Below are positions 18,187 to 42,224 of a stretch of DNA of 64,000 nt, in pieces (within the stretch, counting starts at the first letter, position 1; every line of letters begins with the position of its first letter). The position numbers and the translations under genes are program-made. The notes below the pieces were generated by a model. It saw only the letters and a program-made list of their open reading frames with translations, had not been told where the DNA came from and did not search any database. The DNA is from Diphasiastrum complanatum (Eukaryota; Streptophyta; Lycopodiopsida; Lycopodiales; Lycopodiaceae), in contig CM055097.1 of the NCBI GenBank assembly GCA_029204225.1, forward strand, positions 28,755,192 to 28,819,191, read 5' to 3'.

Positions 18187-18195
18187 GGAGGGGGA
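18185..18195 (+). other. Polypurine tract
   Basis: AAGGAGGGGGA lies three bases before TGTTAGC at 18199, as expected for plus-strand priming of an LTR retroelement. It overlaps the last stop codon of the polyprotein-like gene. Confidence 0.75.
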
Positions 18196-18198
18196 TAA

Positions 18199-18767
18199 TG
18201 TTAGCAAAAAAATATAAAAAAATAAATAAAACACCGTGACACGTGTATTGTAAGTCCACGTGTGAGTACTTGTTAATAGATTTCTACCATGGCATATGTG
18301 TTATAAGACCATGGGTAGAAGCTTAAATAAATTCTAAACTTCTAAGTTAGAAGCTTAAGTTAGAAACTTAAGCTTAAAAACTTAAAAGATTCTAAGTTAT
18401 CTTAAGTTCTAAGTTTAGAGACTTAAACTTTCTAAGTTAGAAGTTGTGAAGCCTTAGAATGGCAAGTTAGAAGTCTAATCCCATAAGTTAGTGGATACTT
18501 ATGGAAGGCCCTTCTTGCTATAAAAGAGAGGCATTTTTCTTGTAAATAAGACTTTGAGATTATGACAAATTGCCACCTTGTGATTATCTTGTTATTTCAT
18601 TGTGTTCTCATTGGAAGGTGAATAGCTTGAGGGAAGGTGCTCGGACCTCCTCTTGCCTCTTCATAGGTTTTTCATTGTGGCATGCTTTTATTGCTTATTG
18701 CTTAATTAGCCGCAATCATTATTATCATTCCCTTTGGGTGTGTTGGCTTGGATGTTGATGCCAACTA
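18199..18767 (+). repeat. Probable 3' LTR of an unclassified element
   Basis: It starts TGTTAGC directly after the polypurine tract and contains a TATA box, TATAAAAG, at 18519-18526. The end near 18767 (GCCAACTA) is only loosely inverted to the start, so the right limit is uncertain. No 5' partner was found in the window. Confidence 0.55.
18319..18475. repeat. Cluster of TTCTAAGTTAGAAGCTTAAG-type motifs
   Basis: Within the LTR, upstream of its TATA box, short inverted and direct motifs such as CTTAAGTT and TCTAAGTTAGAAG recur about eight times. This is an LTR U3-like arrangement and a possible enhancer region. Confidence 0.6.
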
Positions 18768-19903
18768 TAAAATGAATTCCTATTAAAGGATCTTAGATTA
18801 CTTGGAGAACGGATATTAAAGAGCTGCTTCTGATGAGAGTATCAGCGTAGGTGTCTTAGACAATCGTTCAGATTAATTGCGAAAACTATTAGGTGTCTAA
18901 GACAGCCATGCAATTCACTGATTTTTTGATATAAAGGAATGTAATTACAATTAGGCGTCAAACACAACCATACATTTTCTTGTCTGTGACATTATTAGCC
19001 GATATTTTCGCACAAAAAATCATCTAATATTGAAGTTTGAATTTGCAAAACTAGAGAAAACCGGCATGTAGGGATTCTTGCCTCTTGCAGCTTTTTGGTG
19101 GATCTCACTTCTTTTTGCTTCCAGGTGGTTGAATTGACCTCCAAGTAGGTGGAATCTTAGATCTTGATGTACTTTCAACCTATTGATCATGATTATGGAC
19201 TTTCTCCATAGAAATTGATGGGAATCAATGGATTTTTCAGGAGTCTTTTGTGATTTTTCACCTAGAATTCAGAATTTTTGCTTGAAATTTATCAAAGCAC
19301 TGATATAGTACATTTTTCCAGATTGTAATTGCTGTTTTATAGTCATTGATTGGATCTAATGATTGCATGCTAGTTGAAAAGTCAGATAGTGACTTTTAGC
19401 CAAAAATTGGAGTTTTTGGACTAGAAATGGGCCATAAAACGACAATTGACTGAAATCAGAACTTTTAGTGCTTGCATGTAATTTATTTACAGGGATTTGG
19501 ATCTGATTGCACTTAATTGTGGATTTGATCTACAAAAATGGTCAAAAAACACGGTTTTTTGATGGCTTTTGCACTAATTTTGGGAATTTTCACAAAATTC
19601 TTTGCCAATAATTTGCATGAACATTTTTAGAGGTGTAATTATACTTTAATAAGGCTTTCATTAAGTTTTGTTTAGGATTGGACACAATTAAGGGTCTCAA
19701 AAAGTCAAAAAATAGTGTATTTTTTTAGCTTGAATAGCTTTTAATTGGTGGTCTGAACCTGCTAGCTTAAACTCCCAAAAAATAAGCAAGCCCAGAGGGG
19801 ATGAGCCTAAAAATTATTTAGGCAAGGCCACACAACTAGCCTAAACTTTTTTGGCATTCTTTAGGGTCACCTTCCATAATACCTAAAGAAAGTAAACAAT
19901 GGT
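18768..19903. other. No gene seen
   Basis: AT-rich sequence without a coding frame. The stretch at 19790-19880 resembles, in reverse, part of 27990-28090 (shared core close to TAGGCTCAWCCCCTCTGGGC and CACCTTCCATAATAC), so both probably descend from one unnamed repeat family. Confidence 0.5.
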
Positions 19904-19923
19904 GTGAGTGAGTGTAAACAATG

Positions 19924-20005
19924 CTTCTTGGTTTCCAAGGGGGGCCTCGAGCCTGGGACCAAAGAAACTTTGGATGCCAAGGTAACGCTGAGCCAACCCC
20001 ATTGG
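19924..20005 (-). mobile_element. tRNA-derived retroposon (SINE-like) of about 82 bp
   Basis: On the minus strand an A-box-like TGGCTCAGCGT (19985-19995) is followed about 31 bases later by a B-box-like GGCTCGAGGCC (19943-19953). These are the two RNA polymerase III promoter elements at tRNA-like spacing. The segment is flanked by a perfect 16-bp direct repeat, GTGAGTGTAAACAATG (19908-19923 and 20006-20021), which looks like a target-site duplication from retroposition. It is too degenerate to fold as a functional tRNA by eye. A SINE or a tRNA retro-pseudogene are both possible. Confidence 0.6.
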
Positions 20006-20035
20006 GTGAGTGTAAACAATGATGTGAGTGAGTGC

Positions 20036-20998
20036 AATATCCTTGCACAAGGATATATCCTTGCAGATCACTAAAAGGGAAAACGCCCGATCCAAAACTA
20101 AAAATTCCAAAAGCTCATGTGACCAGTCTTAGAGCTCCTTTCCATGTTCACCCCCTCCCCCGGCAGAGACAACATGGGTTGCTGAAGCACTTGAGAGAGT
20201 TTGCAAGTTTTCAAGAAATCAGTTCTTGGACCAGTTCTCTGAAGTGGAAAGATGAGGTAGGGTGACTCACACACACACAAGGGGGTGAGCATGGAAAGGG
20301 CATCTTAGAGGAATGGCTAGTGACTTCCTCCATGTGCCTTAGGTGTGAACATTATCTATTTCTTAAACAGCAAATGATCATAGAACAAAACACAGCAGCA
20401 TAAAAGAGCTAGTAAGATGGTGCAAGGAGGGAAAATGAAACTACAAAAGATAGCTTGAGTTGCTGACATCAATCTGATCAATGCATGTTTCCAGTGCAGG
20501 CATGAGACTTGTTCATACACATATGTTGCTATTTCAAAGATCGGACGTCACAAATTTAAGACTATAATACACCCGGCTACAAGCACTCTGTCACAAAGGA
20601 GAACTGCATATTGCCCTACCATGCACTTTTGAATAATATCATGTTATAAATGTAGCAGTGATTCAGAAATTTTGTTGATATGGCTGTCTGTCCAATAATT
20701 GCTCAGAAAACCGATTCCAACAACCAGGTTCTGCCTCTTCCACAAACACGATGTGCTAGTAGCTACACGGTCGTATGAAGGTTGAGAATACACTACCATA
20801 CGGTTCTTTAATTCCTCTGAAATTCTGAATGATAGGCAGAAAAACTTATTGACAAAGGGAAACATCAAGGTCACAGGTGAGTAAAGCGACTCAATTCTTC
20901 ATAATTTTTCGCGATTCCTGACGGATCCACAGATTCGAAGGACTAACAATATAGCTTACCGATCAGTTGTTGTGTTAGGACACAGAATGCCTCAAGTT
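20036..20998. other. Downstream region of the NPH3 gene; no other gene seen
   Basis: A 20-bp near-palindrome built on ATATCCTTGCACAAGGATAT lies at about 20036-20055. Small ORFs occur on both strands without recognisable domains. The end of the NPH3 transcript presumably falls here, but I cannot pick a polyadenylation site with confidence. Confidence 0.5.
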
Positions 20999-23684
20999 TC
21001 AGTGGTCCTTGTGATGTTCTGCACGATTAGGAGACGTGATGTCTTCCTTTGCAGAAGCTCTGTGATCATCTTCGTGATGCGAATGATGAAGATGAGCGAG
21101 CTTGCTTAATTTTTTAAATCCAGTTATCCAAGTTGAAAAAGTCTTATGCTTGGCAAAGTGGTGCATTTCTTCATGAAAGCGACTATATTGACTTCGAACC
21201 TCAGAAACTTCTTGCTTTAGATTGTCCATTTCCAATCGCATTAGTTTCATCTCTTCATTTACCTTGGCCAAGCCCTCCGAATTAGGGCTAGGATGAAGAG
21301 AGGTTTGAAACAGGCCGACTTCCTTCAAATTGTCATCTGATTTAAGAAACTCTTCAGGCTTCCTTCGTGCCAATGCATTCCTCACCTTGATATAATCGCA
21401 GAATAGAACTTGAACCACTGTTCGTAGTGGAAGGCGTTCATTTTGAAAAGCATGCACGCATGCCTGAAGTGAGAGCTTTTGACAGTCCATAATTCTGCAT
21501 ACCTTTTTTCTTTCATGTTCTGTTAACCTTGGATGGGTCTGAAATCACAAAGCCACTAGAAGTCGTTAGTCGATACTCTAATCGGAATATTATGCTAGAG
21601 GTTAGTACAAAACTCTGTAGAGAAGTAGCCCAATCCACATGTCTGTTTACAATTAAAGTCTAGGCTTGCATCAGAATATGTTCTACATGAAGAAATGCTG
21701 CCTAATAAGCTGAGGAATATACCTTCAGGAAGATGTCTATAGCGCGGTAGAGACCATCGTGAGAAAGGCGGGAACCATCTGGTATTAGTTCTGCAAAACT
21801 TTCAAATTTTGTTAAGGATAGATTTCTGTCCCTTGCTATTTCTGATAGGTAGCTATCTAAGAGTTTGGCCACTTTTAACTTGGCTGCCTGCCTTGGTTTG
21901 AAGGTCCTTGGCGATTCATCCAAGCCTAGCGATGGTGAAGAGTTCGAATGATAACTTTGTTCTGTGATTAAAAAATACTCTACGAGCCGCTGAACAAGCT
22001 CCACGTCAAACAAAGTTTCATACTCACTACAGAATGAAGGTATGAGCAGGTCATCGAGTGTTGCATGATCAAGTTGCGATCCAACTCTTTTTTCTAGGTC
22101 CGCTTTACAACCTGCATCAGCATCCAGCATATTCGCAATTTTTATCAAGCGAATTAGGAACTTGCTAGGAATTGCACTGTCCTCGCGAGGAAGTATTCTT
22201 ACAATGTGCTCAAACAGCGCTAAGTCTTGACGATGTAAAGTAGAGAAACCTTTTACAACTGAATCACTTATTTCTGAGCCAGATACAGATCTTTCCCCTT
22301 CAACTTCTTCAGGGTCATGCATAACAATTTCATACTCTCTTGCCACCGCAGGCAACCATTTTAGAGAATAATGTACGATGACGGATCCAATTGAATCAGG
22401 TCTCATTCCCTTCGCCGCGAGGGCAGCTATTACTTTGGTAAAGTGACCTATCTCGAGGGACACCACATCGTCAAACCACCAGTCTTGCGCGATGTCGCTT
22501 GCAACACTGAAACCTATTGTATCATTGGCAAAGGAAGGATGATTCTTGGTCTCTAAGGTTATTTTGGTACCGGGAGATCTTACACCTCGGGGATCTGTAC
22601 AAGCTTTCCAAGCGATTGATTCACAACATCTCTGAACAATCTTCAGATCTTCAGCCCAAGGAGAAAGGCGTTCACAGGTTTTTAGTACTGATATGGATCT
22701 TTTCCAAGACTGAAGAACAACGTTGTTTATGAACGTTTCTGCTTTTGAGATCAGGTTTCCTTCTTCAAGATCATCAGACATTTCAAGGTAATCTGCCATG
22801 CATCTCACTGCAGCGACGTTTGAAGCACTCAGATCTACAGGCATTCCATAACAAAATCGAGCAGCCAACTCAAAAGCTTCTGCGCCGCCAGACATATGAG
22901 CAAGTACAATTTGAGTCTTCTCCGCATCACGTGACTCGAACACAAGCCGATTGATACGGCCACTTCTGGAGAGCAATGGAAACTGCACAATCTCAAAAGT
23001 TTGTCAGACATTACAAGTCCAGTAGATATAATTTCATCCTTGACCAGAAAGTAGCAGCTACTTTTGATAACTGATCGACGTACGCAGAATCCCCAACTAT
23101 TTGAGCAGTGTTAAGTGAAATATTCACTACTTTTTCTTTTCTTGCACATATCACCATAAAGCGTACTCAACAACGAACCTTGTGGAGATGAAAATTTAAG
23201 CCGCCAACCTCCACAGTCAGGTCACTTTGTAGCTCGGTGGCAACAAACCTACAAGAAGGGTATGCTAAATAATTATCAATACAATGCTAAACCTCACCAA
23301 ACTGTTATATCATGCCAAAAGCTCATATAATGATGAAGCGAAATGGTTCAGTTTACTTGTATGTAACACAGATGAAGTACAAAGGACGAAAAATTATCCA
23401 GAAAATCAGGCTATTTCATGGAAGACGTGCGAATAAAATTAAAAAGCTTTTGCATCTCGCATACATTCTTGAATCCTGATCAGAACGCTCACCATAAACT
23501 TGAATTAATCTTCAGGCTTAATAAGAGTTACTGGAATTTGTACAGTCCGTATAAGTACTTACCAAGCCTCTCCTTTCCTTTGGAAGCCGTCGATTTTCGT
23601 ACCCGTCTTGACAGGACTCATAATGAACGTAGCATTGTCATTGACGTGGACATCTACGTATATGGGTTCCTTCAAGCCATCCAT
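20999..23684 (-). CDS. BTB/POZ and NPH3 domain-containing protein
   Basis: The only intact host gene. I infer four coding exons on the minus strand: 23563-23684, 23179-23248, 21723-22982 and 20999-21538. All introns are GT-AG (314, 196 and 184 bp), and the product is 663 residues, normal for the family. The start at 23684 follows an in-frame upstream stop. Residues 41-150 form the BTB fold ('VEVGGLNFHLHK' then 'FPLLSRSGRINRLVFESRD'). Residues about 230-525 form the NPH3 domain ('WWFDDVVSLEIGHF', 'KGMRPDSIGSVIVHYSLKWL', 'MDCQKLSLQACVHAFQNERL'). Residues about 571-612 are coiled coil, and the tail is His-rich. Members act as substrate adaptors of CUL3 ubiquitin ligases and in phototropin signalling (NPH3, RPT2) or auxin-transporter trafficking. 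Which subgroup this belongs to is not decided here. It stands in single-copy DNA between transposon blocks. Confidence 0.95.
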
Positions 23685-25855
23685 CGCTCGCAAGTAGAAC
23701 TCTGTCGCAATGGCTAGTCAGGATTAAGGATCTATAATTTCATTGCTCTACAAGCTCAGCAATCGTATGCAGCAGATTGAAGGAAAATTTTCTGTGTAAT
23801 CGGGAAACAACAACACAAAATGAAATCCTTCCGAAGCTTAAATATTATAAGTTATAACTCTACGCTTAAATAAACTTATGCATCTAGACAAACGGAGCTT
23901 CATCATCATCAAGATATGTTGAGGAATCTGACTTCAGACTGCCACAAAGTAAAGGATCACTGCGATGAGATGTAGAGCGTCTAGACTATCAAAACCGCAG
24001 CATGCACTCCATTGTAGAACGTCTTCGGTACTGAGGTATCAATACACGCATCCATCTGGGGAGCTCTATTCTCACCTGCATTGGAAATTAGGTCATGTGG
24101 GTGACGCCTCTTTGGCATCTAGGGTGGATTGGTTGGTCCCTCCAATCCAATTTTTGCTTGAATTTAAAAAAAAAAAACGTATTTCTTTTAGTTAAGGGTA
24201 GTTTCAAGATTTAATGCCCCACAAATGCACTTTATTGCAAGGTTACATGGCTAGCAAATCCCTTGACTTGCCCCTAAGCGGCATGCCAAAGTTGCCACCG
24301 CGCATGCTATGTAGGGCCATGTTTGGTGTTGTGTGATCCTTACAAACCAAAATAAGAAGCTTACGCGTGCTTATTGAATTTTTTGTCGACCAACAAGTGT
24401 ATCCACCTAAATATTTTAGATTTATAGGTTTTTTATATGGCTCAAAATCAACTGGTTTTAGTTATTAATCTTAGGTCTTAAGGTTTTATTTAAACCTTTT
24501 ACCGATTCCGTAATAGTTTTTTGGATTTTTTATAAGGTTAGTTTGAAAACTTTTTACGAGCGCTGGTTGCTTTATCCTCAACCATTTGAGCCAGAGGAAC
24601 GATGTCTTAAAAATATATTCTTGATATTAAGATACTAAAAACATGGAGATCTAGAATACGATAAAATCTATTATCTAAGCCAAGGTGCATAAAGCCCCCA
24701 TCCTAAACCATAAATATGAGACAAATAGCCACATCCTAGCCTTGTAAAACCATAAAGATAAGACAAATACTTTGACGTCAATAATCATTTTAAAATATAA
24801 CAAAATGCACAAATTAAAAGATTGTTGCATCACCTAAAGTGGAACTTCACTTGATAAGGAATATAACAATTTAAATGTATCAATATAATGTTTTGTATCA
24901 AAATTTGAGCCTTTTGAAATAAAACAAATATTCTATTTTTCATAAGTTTTAAATTTTGTGTAAACATAAAAGAGCTTTGGCCAATGAATTTTTTAAATGA
25001 CTACCTCTTAGCTTAATTAATTTTGTGATAGGCTTAATTGGTTTTGTGATTTAAAAAAAAATTGGCCCATGAATTGTTTAAAAGATGAGTTTTTGCTTAA
25101 TAGATTCTGCTATGTATTATTTGAGTTATGGCTCTTAAAACCACATCTTATTTTTTAAAAAAGATCACATTCTTGTTGTTTATAGCCATTTATGTAGCAT
25201 TTAAACACCTAGGGATGTTGCCTAAGCAAGACATTGTGCCCATAAACACAAGGGGAAGGCTTTAGAGTGTCACTTGACGGCCCCTAAAGTCACGCTTCGT
25301 CGAATACATTCTTTTGAAACAAGAAGTGTGAGATTCTCATTCACATGCTTCATCCTACCATTTGGATGATCTCAAGTCTTGAACTGTGGAGTAGGCCCTA
25401 TTGGAGTTTTGGGGCCATGACGACTTGCTCTTATATGTTTGCGTTGGCTAAAGTTACAGGGGCGCCTTGGCCTTTTACATATGCATAATGGATTATACAT
25501 GAAAAATTATGCTCATTTTCATATCTCTTATTGAGGGATGAGCTACACCACTATAGTGACAATGGTGGTGTAGCAACCATCTAATGGAGATAGGAGATGG
25601 TACCACCACCTCTTCACAATGGTGGAACCAGACCCCATCCTTAGATCTGTGGAACACCACCATTGCCACAACATTCATGGTGTGGAATACGTGTTCTCCT
25701 TATTGAGCTTATAGTGTGCTATCTTTATACAACCACTTGGTCAAAAAGTTCAAGTGCCAAAATACATAGCAAAAGTTCACTCCAAAAAAATGAAGCTCTG
25801 ATTTTGTTTTCTAATCTAAATTTAACTAATGCAAAGGCCTACTATGTTTCTAATC
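23685..25855. other. NPH3 upstream region and single-copy DNA; no gene seen
   Basis: The NPH3 promoter should lie just above 23684; a TATA-like AT-rich stretch occurs near 23845-23875, but I cannot assign it. Farther out the DNA is AT-rich with only short ORFs. The 43 bases at 24813-24855 reappear exactly at the B/C junction (37893-37935). Confidence 0.55.
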
Positions 25856-25989
25856 TTCATGTAAAGATAAGCCATTGGAACCTTGCAACCTATTACACAA
25901 TAGAAACCACCGAGCACACAAGTGGTGGTGTGCCCTCCCAAGGTGGAAGGCCAGCCCCTCCATGTCCACCCTAGAGGGAGACATCGGCC

Positions 25990-25991
<2 letters not shown>

Positions 25992-26045
<54 letters not shown>

Positions 26046-26107
26046 TTGAAAATTCTTAGGACTCTTAACCCCGCACCCTCCCCCCCCCCCCCCCCCCCTC
26101 CCCCCCC
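25992..26107. repeat. CA microsatellite and C run, copy B
   Basis: About 51 bp of (CA)n (25992-26042) followed by an almost pure C run (26080-26107). Copy D has shorter versions at 51797-51836 and 51866-51888. A second short C run lies at 26255-26267. Proteins predicted across these are repeat artefacts. Confidence 0.95.
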
Positions 26108-26734
26108 AAGCTCGGAGAAATTTTTTGATATGTCATGGCAAGAGCACTTCATAATACTTCAGCAGACCGAGTGAGATTGATGTTTTTAGCATTATTAGCA
26201 AGGCTGGCCTGATTATGTTATAAAAACAAGCCTCGTAATAAGCCATAATGAGCACCCCCCCCCCCCAAGTGTATAAAAATAGAACATGAAATTTCTATAC
26301 GATGATTGTACGACACATCTTATACAGTACAAAAATACAGTAGATTTTAAAAATTATAGAACCCACATATTTAACATATGACAATGCAAATAGATCAGAA
26401 AAAGACTGCCAACAAAAACGACGCTGCCAACGAGAAAGATGCTCCAACGAGAGAGACGAACAAACCACGTTTACAAAACTCGTTGAACAATTAACACCTC
26501 GTTGAACTTTGCAAAGACGTACATATGGTAGTTAAATTGTAAAGCTAAACATTAAAAACACATCGAACTTCACAAAAACATAAAACGTGAATTAGACCTT
26601 ATAAAAAATCTGAATTCGAAACAACACTAAAAACACATAAATACGGTAGTGAAACCATATACATATTATGGCAATAGCATAGTTTAATAGCATAATTAAA
26701 CTGTATAAATACTTTGATAGCCCTGGTATTAACG

Positions 26735-27412
26735 TCAGTTAACGGGCAAGACATGCTCATTATCTATTCTCGTTATCGCATAATGAAAGAAAGAAAATGA
26801 AGCGTGCTCAGTTCTTATCCGTGAACACCATTTACGCCCGAGAGGAATTAGGGCACCCTTATTAATGATTCCTCCAGGCTCCAGGTCCTCCAGAAGAATG
26901 CGAATTGCCCTGACGCTTCCTTTCTGACGCCGTAGTGGACCTGGCCACTGGTCCCACGCCCTGGCTGCGGGGTCTTGGCTCTCCACCTTACAATCTAACT
27001 GTTGGGTCTCGGCCCCCCTGTCATTACAAATGGCCCTGGCCCCAGTTACCGGATGAATGGGGAATCCCGATGTAGGAGTCAGATGGTGGCAGTCAGCACG
27101 ACGTAAAGCCCATGTAAGTTGGCCTTTAAGCACGTGGAGTATTAGTGACCCATAAAATAAACTCGCTAATGCCCACAACATAAACCATAAAAAGGTGAGC
27201 GAGTTTCTAGCCCCCTTTGGAAAGCAAGATGCATAAACAAGTAAGTCGTTATAGGCACATGGCTTTGCGCCTATTTTATGGTCATGGTCCATGGATATAG
27301 GCAAGCTGCCAACTCCTTGTTTACACAAATATGCTTTGTGGGTCTTCCCTAGTGATGAACCCCATTGGTCTTGTGACACTTCACACAATGGAGAACAAAA
27401 AGATACCTTCAT
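26735..27412 (-). CDS. Unrecognised 225-codon ORF, copy B
   Basis: An open minus-strand frame in a GC-richer island (about 26820-27130) than its surroundings. The protein has a Cys-containing N-terminus, a hydrophobic segment at about residues 72-95 ('LTFLWFMLWALASLFYGSLI') that could span a membrane, and a basic C-terminal half. I recognise no family. The copy at 52512-53189 is the same length. The two differ at nine sites, all transitions, of which six are synonymous and three change a residue (C6R, S36N and one L-to-P). That leans towards constraint but is few sites. A captured host-gene fragment, an unknown transposon ORF or chance are all open. Confidence 0.4.
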   Translation of the reverse strand: MKVSFCSPLCEVSQDQWGSSLGKTHKAYLCKQGVGSLPISMDHDHKIGAKPCAYNDLLVYASCFPKGARNSLTFLWFMLWALASLFYGSLILHVLKGQLTWALRRADCHHLTPTSGFPIHPVTGARAICNDRGAETQQLDCKVESQDPAARAWDQWPGPLRRQKGSVRAIRILLEDLEPGGIINKGALIPLGRKWCSRIRTEHASFSFFHYAITRIDNEHVLPVN

Positions 27413-27967
27413 TCATTTTTTTCTCTCAAAGATGCTTTAATTTGAAAGAACATAAGCATGCACTCATGCAATCAACTATCAAGTGTAATATTGCATGGAC
27501 CAATGCATGACAACCATGTAAGCAAGACACTTTCCCTTGTTCTTAGATGAGCTTATTCCCCTATTCCACTTTTACTGAGGGTAGAGGCAAGGCCCCTCCT
27601 CATCCAACCATTGAGAAAGCTTTTTTTTGTGTTTCTCTCAAAGCAGATTGACCATACATTAAAGAGTTTTTACAAAAATACATGCAACAAAATAAAACTC
27701 AAAGAAGTAGCACTTTAGTAGTAGTAAGTTTTCATCAAGTAAGGGATACCTTGTGACTATTATGCCCCTTTTTTAACATATTAAAAAGTAGAATATATAT
27801 GTAGTTTTTTCCAGACATAGGTGCTGCTCTTTCCACCCTTCGTGTCCATATGGCTGCCATGTGACACTTCTAGACTGGTCAATCAGAGTCAAACTGCTTA
27901 TTATGCTTCGTAAGGTACATGTGAAAAAAGTCAAGGTATCCATTACGCAATGGAATCCGTCGCACAG

Positions 27968-28067
27968 AGGACATTTTGCCCAGTTCGGCTTTCCAAAATT
28001 TATTAGGCTCAACCCCTCTGGGCCTCGCCTAAAAAATTCTAGAAATCCTTACCGGGCAAAATGTCCT
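27968..28067. repeat. 14-bp inverted repeat with 72-bp loop, copy B
   Basis: AGGACATTTTGCCC (27968-27981) is perfectly inverted at 28054-28067, and pairing continues imperfectly beyond. It is conserved in copy D (53745-53758 and 53831-53844). It could be the core of a small foldback element. No target duplication is evident. Confidence 0.75.
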
Positions 28068-28462
28068 AGGCCCGACACCTTCCATAATACGTTATTTTGT
28101 TTCAAATACTTGAGTATTTGTAATTATTTGTGATTCAAAATTACTTAATTCATAAGTGGTTAATAAATCTCAATTTGCATTGTAGATCAATGAATGATGG
28201 GTCTTGTTAGAAAAGTATGTCAAAATTCAAACTTGAAAGTAAGAAATCTAATAATAAGAACCTTGTAAAGAATACTTGTAAGAGGTTGCAGGTACACTAG
28301 CAAGCATTGCATCCCATACACTATCATTGAATTAAATTGATTGAAGGCATAATAAGGAATCACCCTTCAAAACGTGGCCCCAATGAATTTATGTATTTGC
28401 ATCTCATCGTTAAGGGAAAAAAAAAAGACGTCTTATAACTTGCATCTCGAAAAAAAAGGAAC

Positions 28463-29188
28463 TTAGAAATGATTTTGAGTCACTAGTGATATAACAAGAA
28501 CGATGTGGTGCTATACCACAAAGGCCTTGCCATGTCATAAGTCGTACTTTTATTTTACGAGAATCCTACAAGTTTAGCAAATATGGAAAGGCATTTATGA
28601 CATAATATGAGAATATTAAGCTGAAAATAAAACTAAAAAATGTGTGAAAAAATAACAAGGTAGGCTGCAGACTCGTCCATATACTTCATAGGTGGTCTGC
28701 TAGCTCTTGATGATCTTCTGAAAAATAGAGGAAGTTGATCATCATCTTTTGATTCACTGTCAATGTAATCGACATTGTATACCTAAGAAAATCCCTCTAG
28801 CAACAAGTCAGGCTTTTCTTCTGTCGATGCTTCCGTTTGCTTTGTACTTGACTTTGAAAATCCATTTGCAATCAACTACGTTTCTGCAAACAGGTAATTC
28901 GACAACCGTCCACAATCGTCCATGCCTGGTTCTTGATAAGAGGACGAATCCTCTTTATCCATAGCTTTTTTCCAGAGATTTGAATCTGGCTGACCTGAGT
29001 GCCTCCTTACAGTTGTCAGCTCGTGAAACAAGTAGGCTACATACACATCGATATACATGATAAGGTGGTCTGAGCTCTTGCGATGAACTTCTGAAAAGAG
29101 GGTTTAGAATCATTTTTATCATCTACTTTTTTGCATCAACATTTTGGCTGAATTGGGCAACAACAAGGGAATCATCAATCGTTTTTTC
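28463..29188 (-). pseudogene. Copia family 1 fragment, copy B, with indel-rich end
   Basis: Matches copy A 1 to about 650 (linker, start of RT, second linker). To about 28780 it is nearly identical to A. From there to 29188 it gains single-base indels (for example an extra C in CCCTC, an extra G in AGGAC, an extra C in GACCTG) and finally becomes scrambled. It then jumps to the equivalent of A 4524, losing protease, integrase, gag and the LTR. The pattern looks like raw, unpolished long-read sequence at an assembly join rather than natural decay. Confidence 0.8.
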
Positions 29189-30197
29189 GGTCCATTCTGC
29201 ATCCCATCTTTAGCTACATTAGCTAGCAGTTTCAACCGTGAACTTTTGTGTAGGGTAGACTGTCTACCATAAGAGTTGTCAGCCATTTCGAGTGAATTCG
29301 GATTCTCAAAAGTCTTGCTATCATACTCATAGGTTTTGCTATCACTAGTTTTTTAGTTGAGAGAGGAAACTGATTTGGATGAAGTGTAAAACCCAATCCT
29401 TCTAAGTTGCATAGTATATGGATTGTCAGTAAATCCTTTATTTAGGAGATTCTTTCATTTGGATCACTTCAGCAAAAGTCGCTAATAACATGTCTGCAAT
29501 GAGAGCTAGGAGGGAAGTTGTCTTCTTTAGAGGAGCTTAATAACGAGCTTGTGCTTCTAGATTTTCCTAGAGTAGGAATGCCAAAACCAGAGGGAGATTT
29601 GATCACCGCCAATGAAGAGGATCTAGGGGATCTTTTCTTATTAACCACCAATTGGTACTGATCAATAGTAGATGGAGAGCAGGAGCACTCCGCACACAAG
29701 TAGCTTGAAAGACTAAGGCAAGTCTTGCAAAAGGCAAGAAAAGAGACAAAATAAACAGGTTATTCGAAATAACCAGCTCCATCAAATATGTGAAGACAAG
29801 AGGGGATAGCATCAGCCAACTTTCAAAGAATGCAAGCCTTAACGTGAGGTGAGAATTTGGAGTTAAAGTCAGATCCACAATGTCTATAACCTCTCCAAGG
29901 TTGGAAAGGAGACCGAAGAGGAGACATTTAAACTTGACAAGAAAAAAAGGAAGAGAGATATGAATCAGAAGATGAGATAGACTCAACGTTCAAAACACTG
30001 AGAGTCTTTCTGAACTTGAAGATCGAAACCCCAGAGTGTTAGATATGTATGGTGAAGCTAGTAACATCAGTTTATTGTTGGCTATTTTCTTTCCTCCTTA
30101 GCCACCTCATACCTAGAAAATAAGGTTCACGAATTTCGTGCTGAATCAGCGTTAGCTGTCTACAAACTGGCACCAGCCAAATCATCCCACCAGGCAT

Positions 30198-30608
30198 CTA
30201 CTTCACATAGTCGTAGGCGAGTATGCAGCGAGATAGTTTCACCCCAATCACCTCCCACATCTCGTCGACGGACTTAGCCACCATCATCAACTGTGCTGCT
30301 AGCCACTCTAAACTTCCCATCCCCCCATCCTCTACAACCACCTTCGCCATTGATTCCTCGCAAGTGCCTTCTGTGACTATTGGCTCCATCGTCCAAGTCA
30401 TAGAAGCATGATCCACCTCTCCATCACATTCTACTGTGATGTCTCCATCAACATAGAGGCTGAAGAACAGTTTGTTATGTCTTAGAGCCCTGAGCCTTTT
30501 GATCCCAACTCTTTTGGAATGGAATTCAATTTGTTCCAACACGCCTCTCAAACCTTGGATTCTACACACAGTCAGATCAAGTACCGGATCCAGCACCAAA
30601 AATTCCAA
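30198..30608 (-). CDS. Unrecognised 136-codon ORF, copy B
   Basis: Identical in protein sequence to the copy A ORF at 5533-5943. No domain is recognised, and its overlap with the opposite-strand remnant at 30519 is the same as in A. Conservation reflects the very recent A/B duplication. Confidence 0.3.
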   Translation of the reverse strand: MEFLVLDPVLDLTVCRIQGLRGVLEQIEFHSKRVGIKRLRALRHNKLFFSLYVDGDITVECDGEVDHASMTWTMEPIVTEGTCEESMAKVVVEDGGMGSLEWLAAQLMMVAKSVDEMWEVIGVKLSRCILAYDYVK

Positions 30609-31091
30609 GCACTAGACACCATCGCAATCCAATCTGTGGCCAAATCACTAAAGACATTTGATGCGCAAGTCCCAGACGAGTTTGAAGGTGATGACACATT
30701 TGAAGAGGAAAATCCACAAGCAAAACTTCAAGACAAGTCACAGTCACCTGTGGGATCAGTTCCTGTTGTTGCAACAACCACAGTACCGCCAGTCTATCTT
30801 GATTATGGTGACATCTTAAAAATTCATACACACCTAGGATGGATGATCCAAAATATGATAGAGGGGAAATCTACCATGGAAAAGTAGATTTTGAATCTCG
30901 GCTCGAAGAACACTTTGATCAGTCAAAAGCTGATCCAGATCAACCGGGAGCTGTAGATCATGAAGCAGCACGAAGCCAAGTCTGAGAGTCTCAAAAAGAC
31001 CAAGAAGCAAGAGAATTACGTTGCCAAGCTCCATAATGCTCTGATCAACGCTCAAGATCAAGTAGACAAAGCTATCCAAAATGCCAAGTAG
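30519..31091 (+). pseudogene. Hydrophilic coiled-coil (gag-like?) remnant, copy B
   Basis: Same as copy A 5854-6426, including the premature TAG after 'GKSTMEK'. One change near the end (GTC to ATC) distinguishes it. It ends just before the GA microsatellite. Confidence 0.45.
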
Positions 31092-31129
31092 CAGGTTCTC
31101 CTATTGTAGGGTCAATTACATGTGTTTTC

Positions 31130-31130
<1 letters not shown>

Positions 31131-31189
<59 letters not shown>
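31131..31189. repeat. GA microsatellite, copy B
   Basis: 59 bp of (GA)n, the shortest of the four copies. Confidence 0.98.
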
Positions 31190-31192
<3 letters not shown>

Positions 31193-32385
31193 TATCTCAA
31201 AAGTTAGAATAGAGAAATATTGAAAGTAGTGAAATTAGAATTTCGAAGTCAAAACATAGAAATATTGAGATGGCTATCAAATGTTGCATGTATGTACCAT
31301 CCACACTCTACATGTAGAGGACGAAGATTATGCTAAATATCAAGAAAAGGAAAGTAGGGGAGTGTAAGGATTTTTGCCTGCTATGAACCTCAATTGAGCC
31401 TTGAGGTCATGAGGCCTATCTTCAAAAAGTAGAGGTTAGAGGAGAAATTCATATTCTTTCCAAATCCTTAAAACATCGAAGATCAAATGTAAACGGGAGG
31501 ACAAATGTTGATTTGTGGATAGACTTGAAAACTTTCCATTATGAGGATTTATGGTTTTGAAAGATTGGATCACTAGGCATGTGGTAGTGGTAGTAGTGCT
31601 ATGTTGATTTGATGAAGATGAGCCAACCAAGAATTTTAGTGATGGTTTGCTATTCTATATTCAATGTTGAAGGATGAGATGTGTGAATGAAAGAGAGAGG
31701 GCTAAGAAATGGTATCTACTTACAAGAATGGTTTGGATAATGGATCGAAATTTGTTAACACCTCAAAAATTTTGTCTAGATTGTCCATCCTTGTGGTGCA
31801 TGAGTTGTTTATATGAGGATATTATTTTGTCTCTTTGAGTTTCAAATGGTCCATTATACTTGTTATCCTGAATTCATTTTGCTTGTGACATTTGGGAATA
31901 ATCTTGCCATTTCTATGCAAGAAAAGTGAAATCCAACATGTACATAGACTACTTCCACCTCAGCATGATTATGTTTGCACTGCCATAGCAAAAGTTGGAG
32001 CTTAGAAAGTATATTGAGGACAAGATTTTGATATTGCAAGACCAACTTGAAAGCCTGGTACTCCATTACTATTAACCTTATTTCATGTACTTGTACTTAC
32101 TAGTTTTCCTTCAAAGCCAATCATATTTAAGATCTATTTTATAATCATTTGGTATTTTTTGAGAGAACATAGCAATCATGCTCGTTGTTTCAAAGATGTC
32201 ATTTATAACCATGCACGTGAATATTGTAATGCCTTTTGTAAGAAATAGATGGTGAGCAGATTGCTTTGGTGATGAGCATAGTTCTCGTTAGGCATGCACC
32301 GAGCTATTTGGTAGTGTGTAGTAGCAAATCCGTTAAAGAATGAAAGTCCACAACCATCCTGGCATGGTGATGCCCTCGGATAATA

Positions 32386-32661
32386 GGCTAAACACATGGT
32401 TTGGTGGTACAACATGGATTGTCAAATACAATACCTTTCTTGGGTAGAAATACACTACCTTTTTATTGGAGGAGCTACTCCCACTACTTACCCCCCAATA
32501 CTCCAAGAGGGTAGGCCCATCATTACTAGGGAATTCTTCATTGCATTAACTCGTGGGTATCATCAAGCTCCATCCCAAATCCCCAAAAGGTGAAATGTAC
32601 TACCAAAAAGTACAATGAAAAATGAGTTTTTCTTTTGTACCACCAAACCATGCTTTTAGCC
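32386..32661. mobile_element. MITE, 276 bp, copy B
   Basis: Same ends and AATA flanks as the copy A element. Internally GGAATTC replaces GGATATC. It was carried along in the segmental duplication, not inserted separately. Confidence 0.85.
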
Positions 32662-34108
32662 AATATCACTATTTCAATTTTCTGATGTAACTAGAGTATC
32701 AGTTAAAAGTGTATTGTAGCCATCTGAATAAAGAAAGCTTGTGTTTGTTTGAAAAGGGAAGTTTTTTGTATTTGATAACATAGCATATGCCGCATACCTA
32801 GATATCTTTAATAGTTGCTATTGCTTTCCCAATTTCATCCATGTACTCAAAACTCAAACGACATGTCAAATTTCTTGCTAGGGCAACCCTCAAATCTAGT
32901 TTACTTGGCTGGAGAAGATTACTACCTTGACTTATTGGCTTTTTCTTGCACCCTTATGCGCATGAGGGAAAGGAAACCAAAGTGCGGTCAATATGCTTAC
33001 AATCAGGAGATGCCCTACTGTTGTTTTAAATAACAAAGGAAACCTTGGATCAAACCACTGGCTGCGGCCACAATTGTCTTCGAGCCTATTGTATTCATGG
33101 TAAATATTTGACACCCTCCAATTGTATGTACATTTATGTTGTGGCTCTATGTATTCATGTATGTACATTTATGTTGTGGCTCTTTGTGTACCTTTAACTG
33201 CTTGATGCAACTCGCTTATTTATATCAAGGAAAATTCTCCGTGTCGTATGATGCTTGCTGTGTTTTGAACTACCTTTATATCAAATTTATCTGGTCAAAG
33301 TTTTTTTTTTCAAGTATAAGCCCTCCGCAAGTTTGTTCCTAGGAACTAAATTTGCGACATAGACTGGTACTTGTGTTTGTTGCTAGTGCATAATAAGTTA
33401 TTGTATGTAAGGTAAACAATCTAAAAATTCTTCATTCTTTTGTAATAACTAACTACTAAGACAAGTGACTCAACATATATCCTTGTATAAAGAGGGCAAA
33501 AAAAGTTTTCATATCATGAATTTCTTAAAATAAAGTCAACTTAATAGCATTATGATTTCAATGCATGCTAATATATTATTAACAAAATCTTTCACTATGA
33601 GGTTTATAATAGAAAAAGATAAGATGTAATAGCTACAATTTTGTGAATTTGCTATATGCTAAAGGCTTGGAGCTTGACTTCCACCATAAAAGTGACTCTT
33701 CTCAGGTGAAAGAGTTTGATGCCCAACATGACCCTATTCAGGATGCAACTCTTCCCTTCTTGAACACTTCTATTCTTGCATAGGTGAACAACCACATTTG
33801 TTTGTTCTTGCCTTTCCTCTTGACATGCTTGAAGATGAGATGAATGTGTCAACTTTCCATGCAATTTGTCATATATTGTTGGCTGCTTTTATTAATTTGT
33901 AGTTTATGCAAAAGTGGTGCTACTTTGTTGCTTATTATTTTAACTTAAGAATCAGAGCTTTTGAACTTTTTCTAGGTTGGATGAGGAATTGATGGATTGC
34001 GATCTGAACACTGAAACGTGAATATCGTGAATATTGAAATGCGAATATTGAAACATATCTCATAAATACTAAAACATGAATATCATGAATACTGAAACGT
34101 GAATACTC

Positions 34109-34318
34109 TGAATGCTGATTGTGAAACTCTGAATAATGATTGTGAAACTCTGAATACTAATCATGATAATCTAAATACTAATCGTGGAACTCTGAATACT
34201 GATCATGAAACTTTGAATATTGATCGTTAAACTTTAAATATTGATCGTGAAATTCTGAATATTGATCGTTATACTCTGAATATAGATTGCGATACTCGGA
34301 ATACTTTGATCGTGATAT
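34109..34318. repeat. 21-bp minisatellite, copy B
   Basis: Ten units, as in copy A. Confidence 0.9.
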
Positions 34319-35475
34319 ATTTTTAATGATGCAATTGTGAGTAAAAAATAGCAATCTTTCTAAATGCTAAAATTGTGAATTTTTTTAATATCGAATTTGA
34401 ATTTCAATAATTATATCAAACTATGAAATTAGTGAATACTCAATCTTGATATTCGTGGTTACTCTCATGAATATCTATGATGAAAATTTTGTGAGTTTAA
34501 TCGTGAAATTAACGATAAGATTTATCACTACTTTCTTCAATACATAGACAATAAATTATGATATTCATTTTTTACAATTGTGAATGTGCATCATAAAATT
34601 GTAAATATTACATCGTGGAATTTACTACTACTTTTGTGAATATTAATTTTGAAATTTTTATATTAAGTACAAAACTACAAATACTTAATTTTTTCCTTTT
34701 GTCGTTATTTCTAAAAAATGATTGCAATATTGTAAACCTACTATTTTAGAGCTTATGCATAATCTTGTGACTATTGATACTGAGTTTGTGACATGATAAA
34801 TACTCAAATATAAAAATAATTAAGATTATTTGTTAAGTTAGAAAATGACCAAACAATTTTCATCCTACAAAATGATCATTTCTCTTATCAAAGATTTACA
34901 AGTCTCAAAACACCACAATAATGGCAAGGCCTTGCCATAATGGTGAAATTATTGAATTGAAAAGACAAAATTCTTTTATTTGAGATTCAAACAAATCCAT
35001 TTATTAGCTTTTTCACTAAAAAGATAATAATCGGTAACTTAAGTCATAATGAAATTCATTTGTTTCTTTTTAACATTTTTGCAAAAGCTTGTTGTGGGTA
35101 TTTTGCGTGTATAGATAAAATAGCCAGAAGTAGTGGAAATAAGTTGCGAGGGCTTGTAAATAATTTATTTTTGGATAAACTAGACGTCGGGCCATGTAAT
35201 TAAGATAATATTAGAAGACCAAAGTTTAAGTTCTCTAAGTTTTGTAATTAGCAAAAGTCAAAGTGGTGGTAGGTGGGGTGTGCTTCCTTGTGCACCATAG
35301 ATTAGTTTGTGTTTCTTTTGAAGGGTTAGGATTTCAATCCTACCTTCTTGCAAGTAGCCAATAGGAAGCAAGGGCCAGGGCCACTCTAAAGATAAAAAGG
35401 CAATTCTTGTAGACCAGTTTACATTGTAATTGAGAGGAGGAAATTCTACCACTTTGGAGAGCCAAACATCCTCAC

Positions 35476-35685
35476 GTGCTAATCATGTTCAGACAGATCA
35501 TTTTGAAGGAGGGATTGTCCATTGATCCTTCAAAGATTGAAGTCATAAAAAACATGAGATTTTCAAAATTTGTGAAAGGAATGTAGACGTTTTTGGGCAT
35601 GACGGGCTTTCACCGCCACTATATCTATGCGTATGCAGACAAAACTCATATCTTGTATGAGGTTCTTAGGAAGGGGGCCGTTTAC
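35476..35685 (+). pseudogene. Ty3/gypsy RT end / RNase H connection, copy B
   Basis: Same fragment as in copy A, including the TAG stop within 'GM*TFLG' that copy C lacks. It is interrupted by the copia solo LTR that follows. Confidence 0.85.
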
Positions 35686-35690
35686 AAAGT

Positions 35691-36381
35691 TGTGAAAAAT
35701 TGCCTACATTGGCAAATCTAGCCATGTAGAATATTGTACATTTTGTCAATATTGTTTGTTGGTTACTTGAATGGCCAAAGTGCCACTTGTACATACACAC
35801 CTAAAGTAGGTTACCACGAGTCAAGAGGAGTGGTCGTGTCTATTTGGTAGTGATTCCTACTTTGTAGGATCTAGACCATGATTTATGATGAGATTTGTAC
35901 CTACCATGCACCTACCAAGCATGACTCTTGGATCTAGGCTAGGGTTTTCACATTAGGGCAAGAAAGTGGAGTCTACTTCCTTATTACATGCTGGATTTTC
36001 ACCTAACTTTGCAAAGGAAGTGTGTTTTACTATGTATTTCCATTCTCCATAGTGAGAAGATAGAAACTTTTTGGAGCCTCAAGGAGAAACTCGAGTTTCC
36101 TCTCATTGTATGGTGATTACTCTATTTTTCCAATAAAACCCAGCTTTGGCACTTTGTAAACACTGTCTACAGGCCGTACTACAGCCTTATTTCCACACGT
36201 GTGGAGTTGGATTAGACTATTTGATCAATGCTTTGATTGTCTATACTTGTTTCCTATCAAGCTGTTAAACTAGATCTTGTTTTATGATGACTAGTTTCTG
36301 ATAGATTGTTTAACAAGCATACAATCACCTTGTGGATCATTCAAAGATCCATTTATGGTCCTTAGTACTGTACTTTTCACA
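35691..36381 (+). repeat. Solo LTR of copia family 2, copy B, with intact target duplication
   Basis: 691 bp, TGTGAAAA to TTTTCACA, flanked by AAAGT on both sides (35686-35690 and 36382-36386). Here the 5-bp duplication is perfect, which fixes the LTR ends in all copies. Removing the LTR and one AAAGT puts the gypsy frame back in register. Confidence 0.95.
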
Positions 36382-36386
36382 AAAGT

Positions 36387-36525
36387 GACCATTAAGCGGT
36401 ATAAGGTGTTCTGTGATCTAATACATGCCTTAATTAATGCACCCATTTTGTGACCGTCGGATTGGAGCAAACCATTTTATATACATTACGATGCATCTCA
36501 AGTAGCTGTTGGGTGCATGGTTTAG
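36387..36525 (+). pseudogene. Ty3/gypsy RNase H fragment, copy B
   Basis: Same as copy A 11738-11876, with the RNase H start ('YIHYDASQVAVG') and the same stops. Confidence 0.85.
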
Positions 36526-36841
36526 TACTCCGTATTATCCTAGGGGTACATAATTCATGATCCCTTTATATATCATATATAAATATATATATGATACAAT
36601 GAGATTATAGTTAAAATAAAACTTAAACAACAAGGGAGAAAAACAACAAGGCAGTAGCCTGCTATCATCTTTCATCGAAGATAGCCTCACACTTGACCTG
36701 GCTACACTCTCCCATCTATCCAACAACTTATTATGTGGAAGACATTGCTCAACCATGATAGTTCTAGTATATTATTCGTATGATCCTAATGCTCAAGTGA
36801 TTGATCCAAATGTCCTGATCTACGATCCAAACTAAGATGTG

Positions 36842-37709
36842 TTTGTAACACAACAATTTTTAGCAATACGTGGGTGTTTTGTCTGTGCAGGTAAACATCC
36901 TAGCATTCGTTGCCCATAACAACTTCATTTTCCACCAACTTGTGAAAATTGTGGCATTGAACACCATGTTAAGGATTGCCCTTCACGATCTAAACCTGCC
37001 ACTCTTGACTGCTTCATGCAAGTAGAAACTCTGCCAGCATGGGTCATGATTCGAGCACAACAACACCAAGCCACTACCATTGCACCCATCAGAACCCAGA
37101 AGCACTTCATACCCCTGAGTGCATGTTCTATGTCCATTGTATACCCTCAACCATCCGAAGAAATTAGCCTGAATCACAAATACCATCAGCAGATTCAAAA
37201 TCTAGACCAACACTCTTCCACCTGCCATAGAGTGCCCCACACATCTCTCGAGAATAAAACTCTAGGGAGATCTGTTACAAGCCAACGTCACACTTTCCTT
37301 CCACGTTTTATGGAAGCATGCAGGTCAATGAAAACAACAATTCCAATCCACTGAAACCACCACCCTTGACGAGCTTCCTGAAATGCCATTACACCTAACC
37401 AATCCACTCAGTGAAAGGGGCAATATCAAGATTCCAGCAACTGATCGCCAATCCTGAGAAGTATTAGTTGTGTTAGATGGTGGCTCAGGTGTCAATATCA
37501 TCTCCACGTCTCTCATGCTGGAATGGAACTTGAAAGACAAACTCACCAAATTCACTTGTCAGCTTAGGATGGCCGATCAAAGTGTCGTCCGAATTACGGA
37601 TTTTCTTCCACAAATTATGATTAAATTGGGAGGCCTAAAATTCACCATAGACCTGGTTGTATTTGATATTCCTGGTAACGCCTATTCTTATGAGTTACTG
37701 CTTGGTTGA
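36842..37709 (+). pseudogene. Ty3/gypsy gag C-terminus and protease, copy B
   Basis: Same zinc knuckles and aspartic protease remnant as copy A (protease at 37470-37709, 'LDGGSGVNIIS'). There are two single-base changes in the gag part relative to A (near 37054 and 37122). The homology to A ends shortly after, at 37896. Confidence 0.8.
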
Positions 37710-37892
37710 CCATGGCTCACCAATGCAAAGGTCGTTCAAGAATGGAGCAAAGGGTAGTCACTTTTGGTTATAGAGAGAGCTCCGTTACCATTGCTTCATC
37801 TGGAAAACTCAAACCAGCCCGATGTGAAAGATTCAACTAGTTTAGTCATATTTGCTACATTTCTTTATATGGCAAATTGAGGCCAACTTTAT

Positions 37893-37935
37893 ATTAAAAG
37901 ATTGTTGCATCACCTAAAGTGGAACTTCACTTGAT
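37893..37935. other. Templated filler at the B/C junction
   Basis: These 43 bases are identical to 24813-24855, single-copy DNA 13 kb to the left and in the same orientation. On the left it overlaps copy B by a 4-base microhomology (ATTA); on the right it passes straight into copy C at the equivalent of A 2160. Such copied filler is typical of template-switching or end-joining repair. Confidence 0.9.
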
Positions 37936-38704
37936 TTCTTCCATTTCGACTTGAGGAGATGCTGTAATGTATTTGCTTGTTAATCAGGTTGCTTGGCTGC
38001 ATTCTTCGATTTGAGAATTTGGCAATCTTGGATCTCATGGTTATTGAGTTTGCAATAACTGCAAAACATCTTCTTCTTTGACGAATGTGGATTTGATGAT
38101 TGTTGATGACTTTGAATCTATTTTTGATTCGATGCTCGAAGCTTTTCTACATCTGTCATTTCAAACCCTTGTTGACATATAGAGCATGAGACAAAGAGGT
38201 AGATGAAGTGTCTTAACTTCTTTGATTATCTTCTTGCAGCAACATAGCGATAACTCTGGTAAGAGTTAAATCTGAGTGTATTGTGATGACCATCACCCAG
38301 TTCTAATATGTAGAGGGCATGCTTGAAAGCAATGTCATTATTGTGTCTTGAGCGTCTAATACTGATCTGACAGTGGCCATCTATTGTAAGAGATTCTTAA
38401 ACTGGTTAATATGATTCTGAAGAGAAACACCATTTGACATCGTGAGTGTGAAGAATCTCCTTCGAACATGTAACTTAGTTACGTCTCTCACATCATATAG
38501 TGAGCTCTGGATGTCCCAAACTTCTATTGAAGTTTTAGCTTCACCTATGTGGCCAATTTGAGTATATGATATATTGAGTATAAAAAGCGCGAAAGCTTTA
38601 CCATCCTTCAATTTTAATTTTGAGTCTTCTATTTCATCTTCAGGTTTCACTTCGATACTTGTAACAACATCCCATAACTCGTTGGTGATTAGCAAGGTCT
38701 TCAT
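37936..38704 (-). pseudogene. Copia family 1 gag and zinc knuckle, copy C
   Basis: Only the 5' part of the family 1 element remains: gag of the UBN2 type (38381-38704) and the region of the zinc knuckle. The protease, integrase and RT lie beyond the filler junction and are absent. One Leu-to-Val change separates its gag from copy A. Confidence 0.87.
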
Positions 38705-38975
38705 CTTAAATTTTCACAAATGATAATTGGATCCATTCAGCTTGTGTCTGCGATAAGACCAGCTTTACTTTGAGAATCCATCTGGAACGTAGTCTGTTGA
38801 TTGTATCAATGACGCTAAGATGTAGTGATGGCAAAAACATGAAATCAATTCTCTGATACTTAAAGGATGAAAGGATTTGAAGAATATGATATCAATTTGA
38901 TATCGCGAAAGATATTAGTATTAAGGCTTTTTGCTCTGATATCGATATAGTATCAGGCCTTGAAGAAGAATCAAT

Positions 38976-38987
38976 GCTTTGATACCA
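38976..38987 (-). other. Primer-binding site of copia family 1, copy C
   Basis: The minus strand reads TGGTATCAAAGC and abuts the LTR at 38988. The leader here has a single copy of the sequence that is tandemly doubled in copy A. Confidence 0.88.
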
Positions 38988-40052
38988 TGTCGAAAATATG
39001 TGAGTGATGGAATGCGAACACTTCCTACTTCCAATGCATGACTACGCCTATAAAAAATTGAACAAAGCAGTAGTGATGTAAATCACGTTCAATATTTAGC
39101 AGCTAACTTTCGCTAGATACTAAGTGATTATGTAGCCAAACATAAAGTATTCAATTCTCCGACAATTTCTATCAGTTACAAAAGCAATACAGAAATGCAT
39201 GCATTCTGACACAAACTAAACGCAATAAGAAAATAGTATTGATTTTAAAAAAAAAGATCAGATGCTAATGAGTGCAAGACAATAGCAGATAGAAACCATG
39301 CACTCTAAAGCTGTCTCTGAGTAACTGAGAATAAGTCTGAAATAAACAACTCTGCTGATAAGCAGTAGCACAATAGCAATTCTAAAATAAATCTCTAAAA
39401 AACTGAACTAGAATGCTCAAGAGAGTTCAAGCTTGAAAGCTTGATAGAGAGCTAACAACAATACTTTCTGATTATGAATGATCTGCTTGATGAGAGCGCA
39501 AGAAGCATCGTGTAATAACGCTCAACTCCTTCACAATTCACAATAACATTGATCTTGACTTGATCATTGATAATGAGATGTATGAACAACTAATTTATAC
39601 TAGGTCATCAAATGCAATTGCCAGATGGCTGGAGTCCACTGACATTCATCTAGGTCTTCTCAGAAGTTGCTTGCTGACAAGTGGTGACAATTGGCCGTAA
39701 ATAGTGTGTCTGCATAAATGAACATAAACTGTCATTATGCATAAATGAATGTAAACTGCCCCAAGTGAAAAATGCAACACTACATTTTTACTCGTAATTT
39801 CTGCAGGTGAAAAGTGTGAAACAGATGACACTGCATTTTTGCACGTAATTCCTGACAGACAAAAAATGCAAAAAAGACAACACTGCATTTTTACACATAA
39901 TTTCTGATAGGCGAAAAATGCGAAAAAGGTGACACTACATTCTTACATGCAATTTCTGACAGGCAGAAGATGCGAGGAAGGTGAAACTGCATTTTTATAC
40001 GAGATTCCTAACAGGCGCCATTGTCGGGTTTGCAGAGAGAGAAAATACGACA
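38988..40052 (-). repeat. 5' LTR of copia family 1, copy C
   Basis: Ends TGTCG and CGACA as in copy A, with the 52-bp tandem repeats at 39781-40017. Confidence 0.7.
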
Positions 40053-41291
40053 CTGTTGTCAAACTCCATATATTTCTACAGCCTATGTAAAACACTTGTA
40101 AATCTGTAGACTGTATAAAAACATGGGAAAATCTGCAGAATTGGACAAATAGTTGGATGAAGATTAAAAACCGATTAGTCGATTAGTAGGAAGGAGAATA
40201 ATCCATCATCTCAATTTGAGAAATATCGAGACTAGTTTTTTGGAGTGCTGAAAAGGGGTGGAACAATTTGATTTTGCAATTCGGTCCATTCTGCATCCCA
40301 TCTTTAGCTACATTAGCTAGCAGTTTCAACCGTGAACTTTTGTGTAGGGTAGACTGTCTACCATAAGAGTTGTCAGCCATTTCGAGTGAATTCGGATTCT
40401 CAAAAGTCTTGCTATCATACTCATAGGTTTTGCTATCACTAGTTTTTTAGTTGAGAGAGGAAACTGATTTGGATGAAGTGTAAAACCCAATCCTTCTAAG
40501 TTGCATAGTATATGGATTGTCAGTAAATCCTTTATTTAGGAGATTCTTTCATTTGGATCACTTCAGCAAAAGTCGCTAATAACATGTCTGCAATGAGAGC
40601 TAGGAGGGAAGTTGTCTTCTTTAGAGGAGCTTAATAACGAGCTTGTGCTTCTAGATTTTCCTAGAGTAGGAATGCCAAAACCAGAGGGAGATTTGATCAC
40701 CGCCAATGAAGAGGATCTAGGGGATCTTTTCTTATGAACCACCAATTGGTACTGATCAATAGTAGATGGAGAGCAGGAGCACTCCGCACACAAGTAGCTT
40801 GAAAGACTAAAGCAAGTCTTGCAAAAGGCAAAAAAAGAGACAAAATAAACAGGTTATTCGAAATAACCAGCTCCATCAAATATGTGAAGACAAGAGGGGA
40901 TAGCATCAGCCAACTTCCAAAGAATGCAAGCCTTAACGTGAGGTGAGAATTTGGAGTTAAAGTCAGATCCACAATGTCTATAACCTCTCCAAGGTTGGAA
41001 AGGAGACTGAAGAGGAGACATTTAAACTTGACAAGAAAAAAAGGAAGAGAGATATGAATCAGAAGATGAGATAGACTCAACGTTCAAAACGCTGAAAGTC
41101 TTTCTGAACTTGAAGATCGAAACCCCAGAGTGTTAGATATGTATGGTGAAGCTAGTAACATCAGTTTATTGTTGGCTATTTTCTTTCCTCCTTAGCCACC
41201 TCATACCTAGAAAATAAGGTTCACGAATTTCGTGCTGAATCAGCGTTAGCTGTCTACAAACTGGCACCAGCCAAATCATCCCACCAGGCAT

Positions 41292-41726: not shown

Positions 41727-42185
41727 TCTGTGGCCAAATCACTAAAGACATTTGATGCGCAAGTCCCAAACGAGTTTGAAGGTGATGACACATTTGAAGA
41801 GGAAAATCCACAAGCAAAACTTCAAGACAAGTCACAGTCACCTGTGGGATCAGTTCCTGTTGTTGCAACAACCACAGTACCGCCAGTCTATCTTGATTAT
41901 GGTGACATCTTAAAAATTCATACACACCTAGGATGGATGATCCAAAATATGATAGAGGGGAAATCTACCATGGAAAAGCAGATTTTGAATCTTGGCTCGA
42001 AGAACACTTTGATCAGTCAAAAGCTGATCCAGATCAACCGGGAGCTGTAGATCATGAAGCAGCACGAAGCCAAGTCTGAGAGTCTCAAAAAGACCAAGAA
42101 GCAAGAGAATTACGTTGCCAAGCTCCATAATGCTCTGATCAACGCTCAAGATCAAGTAGACAAAGCTGTCCAAAATGCCAAGTAG
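41613..42185 (+). pseudogene. Hydrophilic coiled-coil (gag-like?) remnant, copy C
   Basis: The least damaged version. CAG (Gln) stands where A and B have TAG, so the first open part runs 145 codons to TAG at 42048-42050, and the frame is then open again to 42183. This indicates a longer ancestral protein that was already broken at the second stop. Confidence 0.48.

Positions 42186-42223: not shown

Positions 42224-42224
<1 letters not shown>

Follow-up and report, generated by a model that had tools for sequence, protein, structure and literature searches.

The window analysed here is a stretch of 64,000 nucleotides (positions 28755192-28819191 of C6, in a 1.74-Gb assembly of 5,176 contigs) that contains a two-piece NPH3-family gene and fragments of copia polyproteins, a combination that marks the genome as that of a plant. 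Comparison of the window with itself delimits four copies:

1-13247: copy A
25856-37896: copy B
37936-47504: copy C
51661-63838: copy D

Copies A and B belong to consecutive units of a tandem array whose period is approximately 28.47 kb; comparison with the sequence upstream of the window (negative positions) matches -17261 to 658 with 11207-29122 at 99.3% identity. A third unit after B consists of a 2-kb start only (35856-37896), from which the sequence jumps from 13247 to 24816 (24816-24855) at a shared ATTA and then enters copy C. The segments 24813-24855 and 37893-37935 are direct repeats flanking 13 kb, and these 13 kb are missing from a second version of the locus on C3 (described below). 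In copy D, about 1.9 kb (59482-61416) is inverted with respect to copies A, B and C.

Alignment of copy B and its surroundings to the neighbouring unit divides the sequence as follows:

23500-28762, no strand: clean left flank in copy B, with no substitutions and four indel events relative to its tandem partner
28781-29019, no strand: sparse ramp with three one-base insertions (28793, 28942 and 28994), each doubling the adjacent base, and no substitutions
29020-29122, no strand: dense error patch with four substitutions and ten indels, aligning to A 556-658 at about 82% identity
29123-29185, no strand: orphan segment of 63 bases with no significant match in the window and none found elsewhere in the assembly
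29186-37896, no strand: clean right flank, equivalent to A 4521-13247, with eight substitutions and one microsatellite gap
659-4520, minus strand: 3,862 bp of copy A without a counterpart in copy B, carrying decayed remnants of copia gag, pre-integrase and SH3

The left-flank indel events fall in an A run (24166), an AC microsatellite (25992), a single C (26208) and a C run (26255), and the 318 bases from 28463 to 28780 differ from copy A by one substitution; on the right, the gap is a 16-bp AG microsatellite, and no difference of any kind precedes 31074. The first-pass annotation had put both flanks at about 99.9% identity to copy A, which on the left is correct for the near flank only and not for 11-23 kb, where divergence between the units is about 0.1-1.1% per kb (maximum 11 substitutions per kb at 14-15 kb). 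It had also described many one-base indels spread across 400 bases, then scrambled sequence, then resumption at A 4524: the region is indeed rich in indels, but up to 29019 they are few and crowding begins only beyond that point; and homology to copy A restarts cleanly at 29186, which corresponds to A 4521 instead. Errors increase toward the join and cease at once at 29186.

The count of four substitutions and ten indels in the dense patch was made with the piece boundary moved one base later; across four scoring schemes the patch has 80-82% identity, 4-6 substitutions and 9-11 indel events, of which one is an effect of the piece boundary. A one-base "deletion" that piecewise scoring placed in the ramp is also a product of a piece boundary and is absent from a separate alignment. 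Taking the rate of the right flank (9 events in 8,711 bases) as the expectation, the 14 events within the 103 bases of the dense patch have a Poisson probability of 2.5e-25 and the three within the 239 bases of the ramp a probability of 0.002, and the 18 events between 28463 and 29122 cluster near the junction (Kolmogorov-Smirnov p = 1.2e-7). Each of the first five one-base insertions doubles the adjacent base. CLR errors look like this: one-base insertions that double the adjacent base.

The spectrum of these differences was compared with that of other copies and repeats. Over the same bases, 15 other copies differ from A by 69 substitutions and 2 indels, versus 4 and 10 for copy B (Fisher p = 1.9e-8); the 15 (the comparison took in 13 at ranks 3 to 15 among the 39 other scored candidates of the patch search, together with A, D and D's counterpart on C3) include five near-duplicate pairs and are therefore not independent, and counting near-duplicates once, as 10 distinct copies, gives p = 6.8e-8. 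Old repeat pairs in the window (76-93% identity) have 117 substitutions to 7 indels (p = 3.2e-8 against the patch), and the near-identical copies of C6 and C3 together with two pairs involving unplaced contigs have 92 substitutions to 13 gaps (p = 6.8e-6). Under the least indel-friendly scoring, which reduces the patch to 6 substitutions and 8 indels, the contrast is weaker but persists, with p = 5.5e-6 with the 10 distinct copies and p = 4.0e-4 against the differences of C6/C3 and the unplaced-contig pairs. None of copy B's ten indels recurs in the 15 other copies, and two of its four substitutions do; the near-duplicate partner of each copy was left out of this sharing test. In a density scan of 3,404 windows from 29 near-identical alignments (those shorter than 800 bp or below 96% identity having been dropped), at least 7 indels per 100 bases occur in three windows, all of them views of this patch from one side or the other; a single window reaches 6 indels, where an alignment over-runs the end of homology at 47504, and all others have 3 or fewer. 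No second patch of this kind appeared among those windows, which speaks against an assembly fault insofar as the assembly is not seen to make such errors elsewhere.

The orphan has no convincing match among the sequences with which it was compared. An assembly-wide search at E up to 10, of a type that skips very common words, returned one candidate, the orphan itself, and local alignment to the copies on both strands gave a best score of 34, against 29, 32 and 42 for three shuffles. When the alignment was anchored and run forward from A 655, 161 of 200 shuffles did as well, and run backward from A 4520, 58 of 200 did, so that the orphan is assignable neither to a continuation of the left side nor to a lead-in of the right. 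An alignment with cheap gaps can stretch the left homology to about A 682-697; it was not relied on.

Judged from the assembled sequence, 28781-29185 is very probably an assembly seam made of uncorrected, error-prone long-read sequence. The differences from a near-identical copy are predominantly indels, they are private to one copy, and they are confined to one spot, a structural join with clean sequence on either side. The stretch is probably raw or barely corrected long-read sequence of the copia segment that extends from A 319 to at least A 658. Such a noisy stretch, presumably from a single low-quality read or contig end, would have lain where a contig or read path broke off inside a repeat too long or too similar for reads to resolve; as read quality dropped toward the join, its noisy end would then have been attached to the clean unit at position 4521, 3.8 kb further along. 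Polishing was probably starved at this point, leaving the seam uncorrected, because the reads needed for polishing would map preferentially to the cleaner copy. No N run occurs in the 154 kb of C6 that was examined. The join thus coincides with no declared gap, which counts against the seam reading and indicates that the assembler or a gap filler made it. The earlier proposal of an assembly fault is supported indirectly by the private indels, the uniqueness of the patch among near-identical alignments, five clean junctions elsewhere, the failure to find an orphan donor and an assembly context in which bad joins are to be expected.

The five other junctions (within the array, or between C6 and C3) are clean by eye, with a few unassigned bases at most and no ramp. 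Clean, real-looking deletions do occur in the array: at 37896 the sequence jumps from 13247 to 24816, and at 50101 there is a difference of 161 bp. The 161 bp at 50101 lies within a copia coding region and is present in C3 and absent from C6. The matching C3 sequence (C3:17157168-17210642) is a contig of 53.5 kb, bounded on each side by a 10-kb N run, that shares 38.7 kb with the window at 99.7-99.9% identity; it matches 8588-24855 and 37893-60224, joins 24855 directly to 37936, and stops at a (TC)n microsatellite near 60224. This version is without the whole seam-bearing stretch and consequently offers no evidence on the seam. Two origins are open to it, misplacement of the other haplotype on a wrong chromosome or a recent segmental duplication: a heterotype false duplication would leave a second near-identical contig of this sort, but a true recent duplication would look the same. 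At C3 17210642, the single other contig end compared, the sequence stays clean right up to the N run, a result that counts against the seam reading.

Two pairs of an unplaced contig and a chromosomal locus were compared, picked for equal or near-equal bit scores in a search with 659-2159, and in both the contig mirrors the locus: over 8-kb stretches one pair is 99.65% identical (16 substitutions, 2 gaps) and the other 98.8% (36 substitutions, 4 gaps). Together with the C3 match, these pairs show that the assembly keeps near-identical duplicates that differ mostly by substitutions, and in combination with the tandem units they lead us to expect bad joins and starved polishing. The unplaced contigs compared are C3845 and C673, their counterparts lie on C12 and C13, and several further contig pairs have equal or near-equal scores in the searches with the patch and with 659-2159. 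Contig pairs with matching scores suggest that alternate haplotypes are retained in the assembly.

Two known kinds of assembly error resemble the seam. According to passages of PMC8081667 on false duplication in long-read assemblies, duplicated sequence attracts mapped reads, the quality of one haplotype may in consequence stay lower than that of the other, and short indels are the commonest consensus error of CLR assemblies; the likeness lies in near-identical duplicates, short indels and one copy of low quality whose reads align to the other. The cases treated in those passages are from vertebrates, whereas the present seam is known from assembled sequence alone. Gap filling with error-prone reads, as described in part of PMC7476103 (TGS-GapCloser and similar tools), is comparable in that it leaves noisy bases without N and may create local misassemblies; a filled gap would, however, be expected to be noisy throughout, whereas the errors of the seam grow denser as the join is approached and vanish immediately on its right side. 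The patch with its join is very probably an ordinary assembly artefact.

Whether copy B truly lost the 3.9 kb that had been reported missing beside the patch is a separate matter. The gap itself is as described, since A 659-4520 (3,862 bp) is absent from copy B, and the following matches lie inside it:

2440-2937: Gag
1479-2111: Pol_BBD, along with a gag_pre-integrs match that falls below its curated cut-off
874-1092: SH3-like domain

Of the copia gag, integrase and LTR that copy B was said to have lost, gag is thus accounted for, but the other two are not: there is no integrase-core match in the pieces and comparisons made, and no LTR pair around the missing stretch within -6000 to 7200 with the low-complexity filter on. 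Because the stretch consists of short, decayed copia frames already in copy A, its loss would change no working element. We consider the 3.86-kb loss probably false, at least in part, because the position of the noise coincides exactly with the join and because the clean junctions suggest that well-covered joins get a good consensus. The opposite case, a true 3.86-kb deletion in copy B with wrong base calls only at a poorly covered junction, is distinctly less likely, although clean, real-looking deletions such as those at 37896 and 50101 suggest that the array does undergo such changes; where a junction in the array is genuine and well covered the consensus seems to be good, and here it is not. 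This case shares its error component with the seam reading, and its probability is contained in the one assigned to the seam. Besides copy A, no spare copy of 659-2159 at 99% identity or better was found among the 40 candidates scored of 9,865, as a true deletion would predict; a collapsed copy would also leave no spare, however, so this result fits a real deletion and collapse into A alike.

Explanations that make the patch itself genuine fare much worse. A diverged copia relative might have supplied it by gene conversion or recombination, given that the family is large (40 scored matches among 2,608 candidates), that other loci match the 105-base patch nearly as well as A does (88.7 versus 90.6 bits), and that half of B's substitutions are present in other copies. 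Near-equal scores are, however, what random error on any of the copies would produce, since this segment is conserved in the family, A being 92-98% identical to the compared copies over it, and the near-tie of A and other loci as a sign of a donor was removed by the alignment and the sharing test. Among the 40 of 49 candidates that were scored, none outside the window exceeds 83% identity to the patch, the best non-self match being 81% over the whole query (A itself) and 83% over part of it. With none of the indels shared by the 15 copies, no donor found that shares the states of the patch and none found for the orphan, such an origin is very improbable.

Equally slight is the chance that polymerase theta end joining produced a true deletion with filler and scattered errors adjacent to it. 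The 63 bases without a source at the junction recall this pathway, of which deletions with templated filler are typical in Arabidopsis according to the portion of PMC10923293 drawn on here; deletion and junction bases of no known source are the points of likeness. The difference from the events in that account is that the orphan has no templating nearby beyond chance: compared with the flanks and with the edges of the missing stretch, it shares no exact match longer than 11 bases, a length reached by 60 of 300 shuffles, and its 9-mer coverage was reached by 87 of 300. Nor does the pathway account for one-base insertions scattered as far as about 390 bases from the junction, and nothing similar is seen at the five other junctions. 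More generally, for the patch to be real DNA, about ten small indels per 100 bases would have to have arisen in one error-prone break repair along with an untemplated 63-base filler, which is hardly to be expected. Ordinary decay of copy B can be dismissed: both copia pieces are dead and nothing would restrain it, but changes in the family are mostly substitutions, and decay would neither halt at 29186 nor spare 23500-28762, in agreement with the earlier argument that natural decay would not be confined to one patch.

Given a probable seam, the missing copia parts of copy B, and the copy number and order of the array, should not be read as biology unchecked. Clusters of private, indel-dominated differences between near-identical copies might also reveal bad joins in published plant assemblies without recourse to reads. 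At 26208 in the left flank, a lone C is doubled to CC amid more than 5 kb free of substitutions; like the insertions of the ramp, it may be a consensus error that was never corrected.
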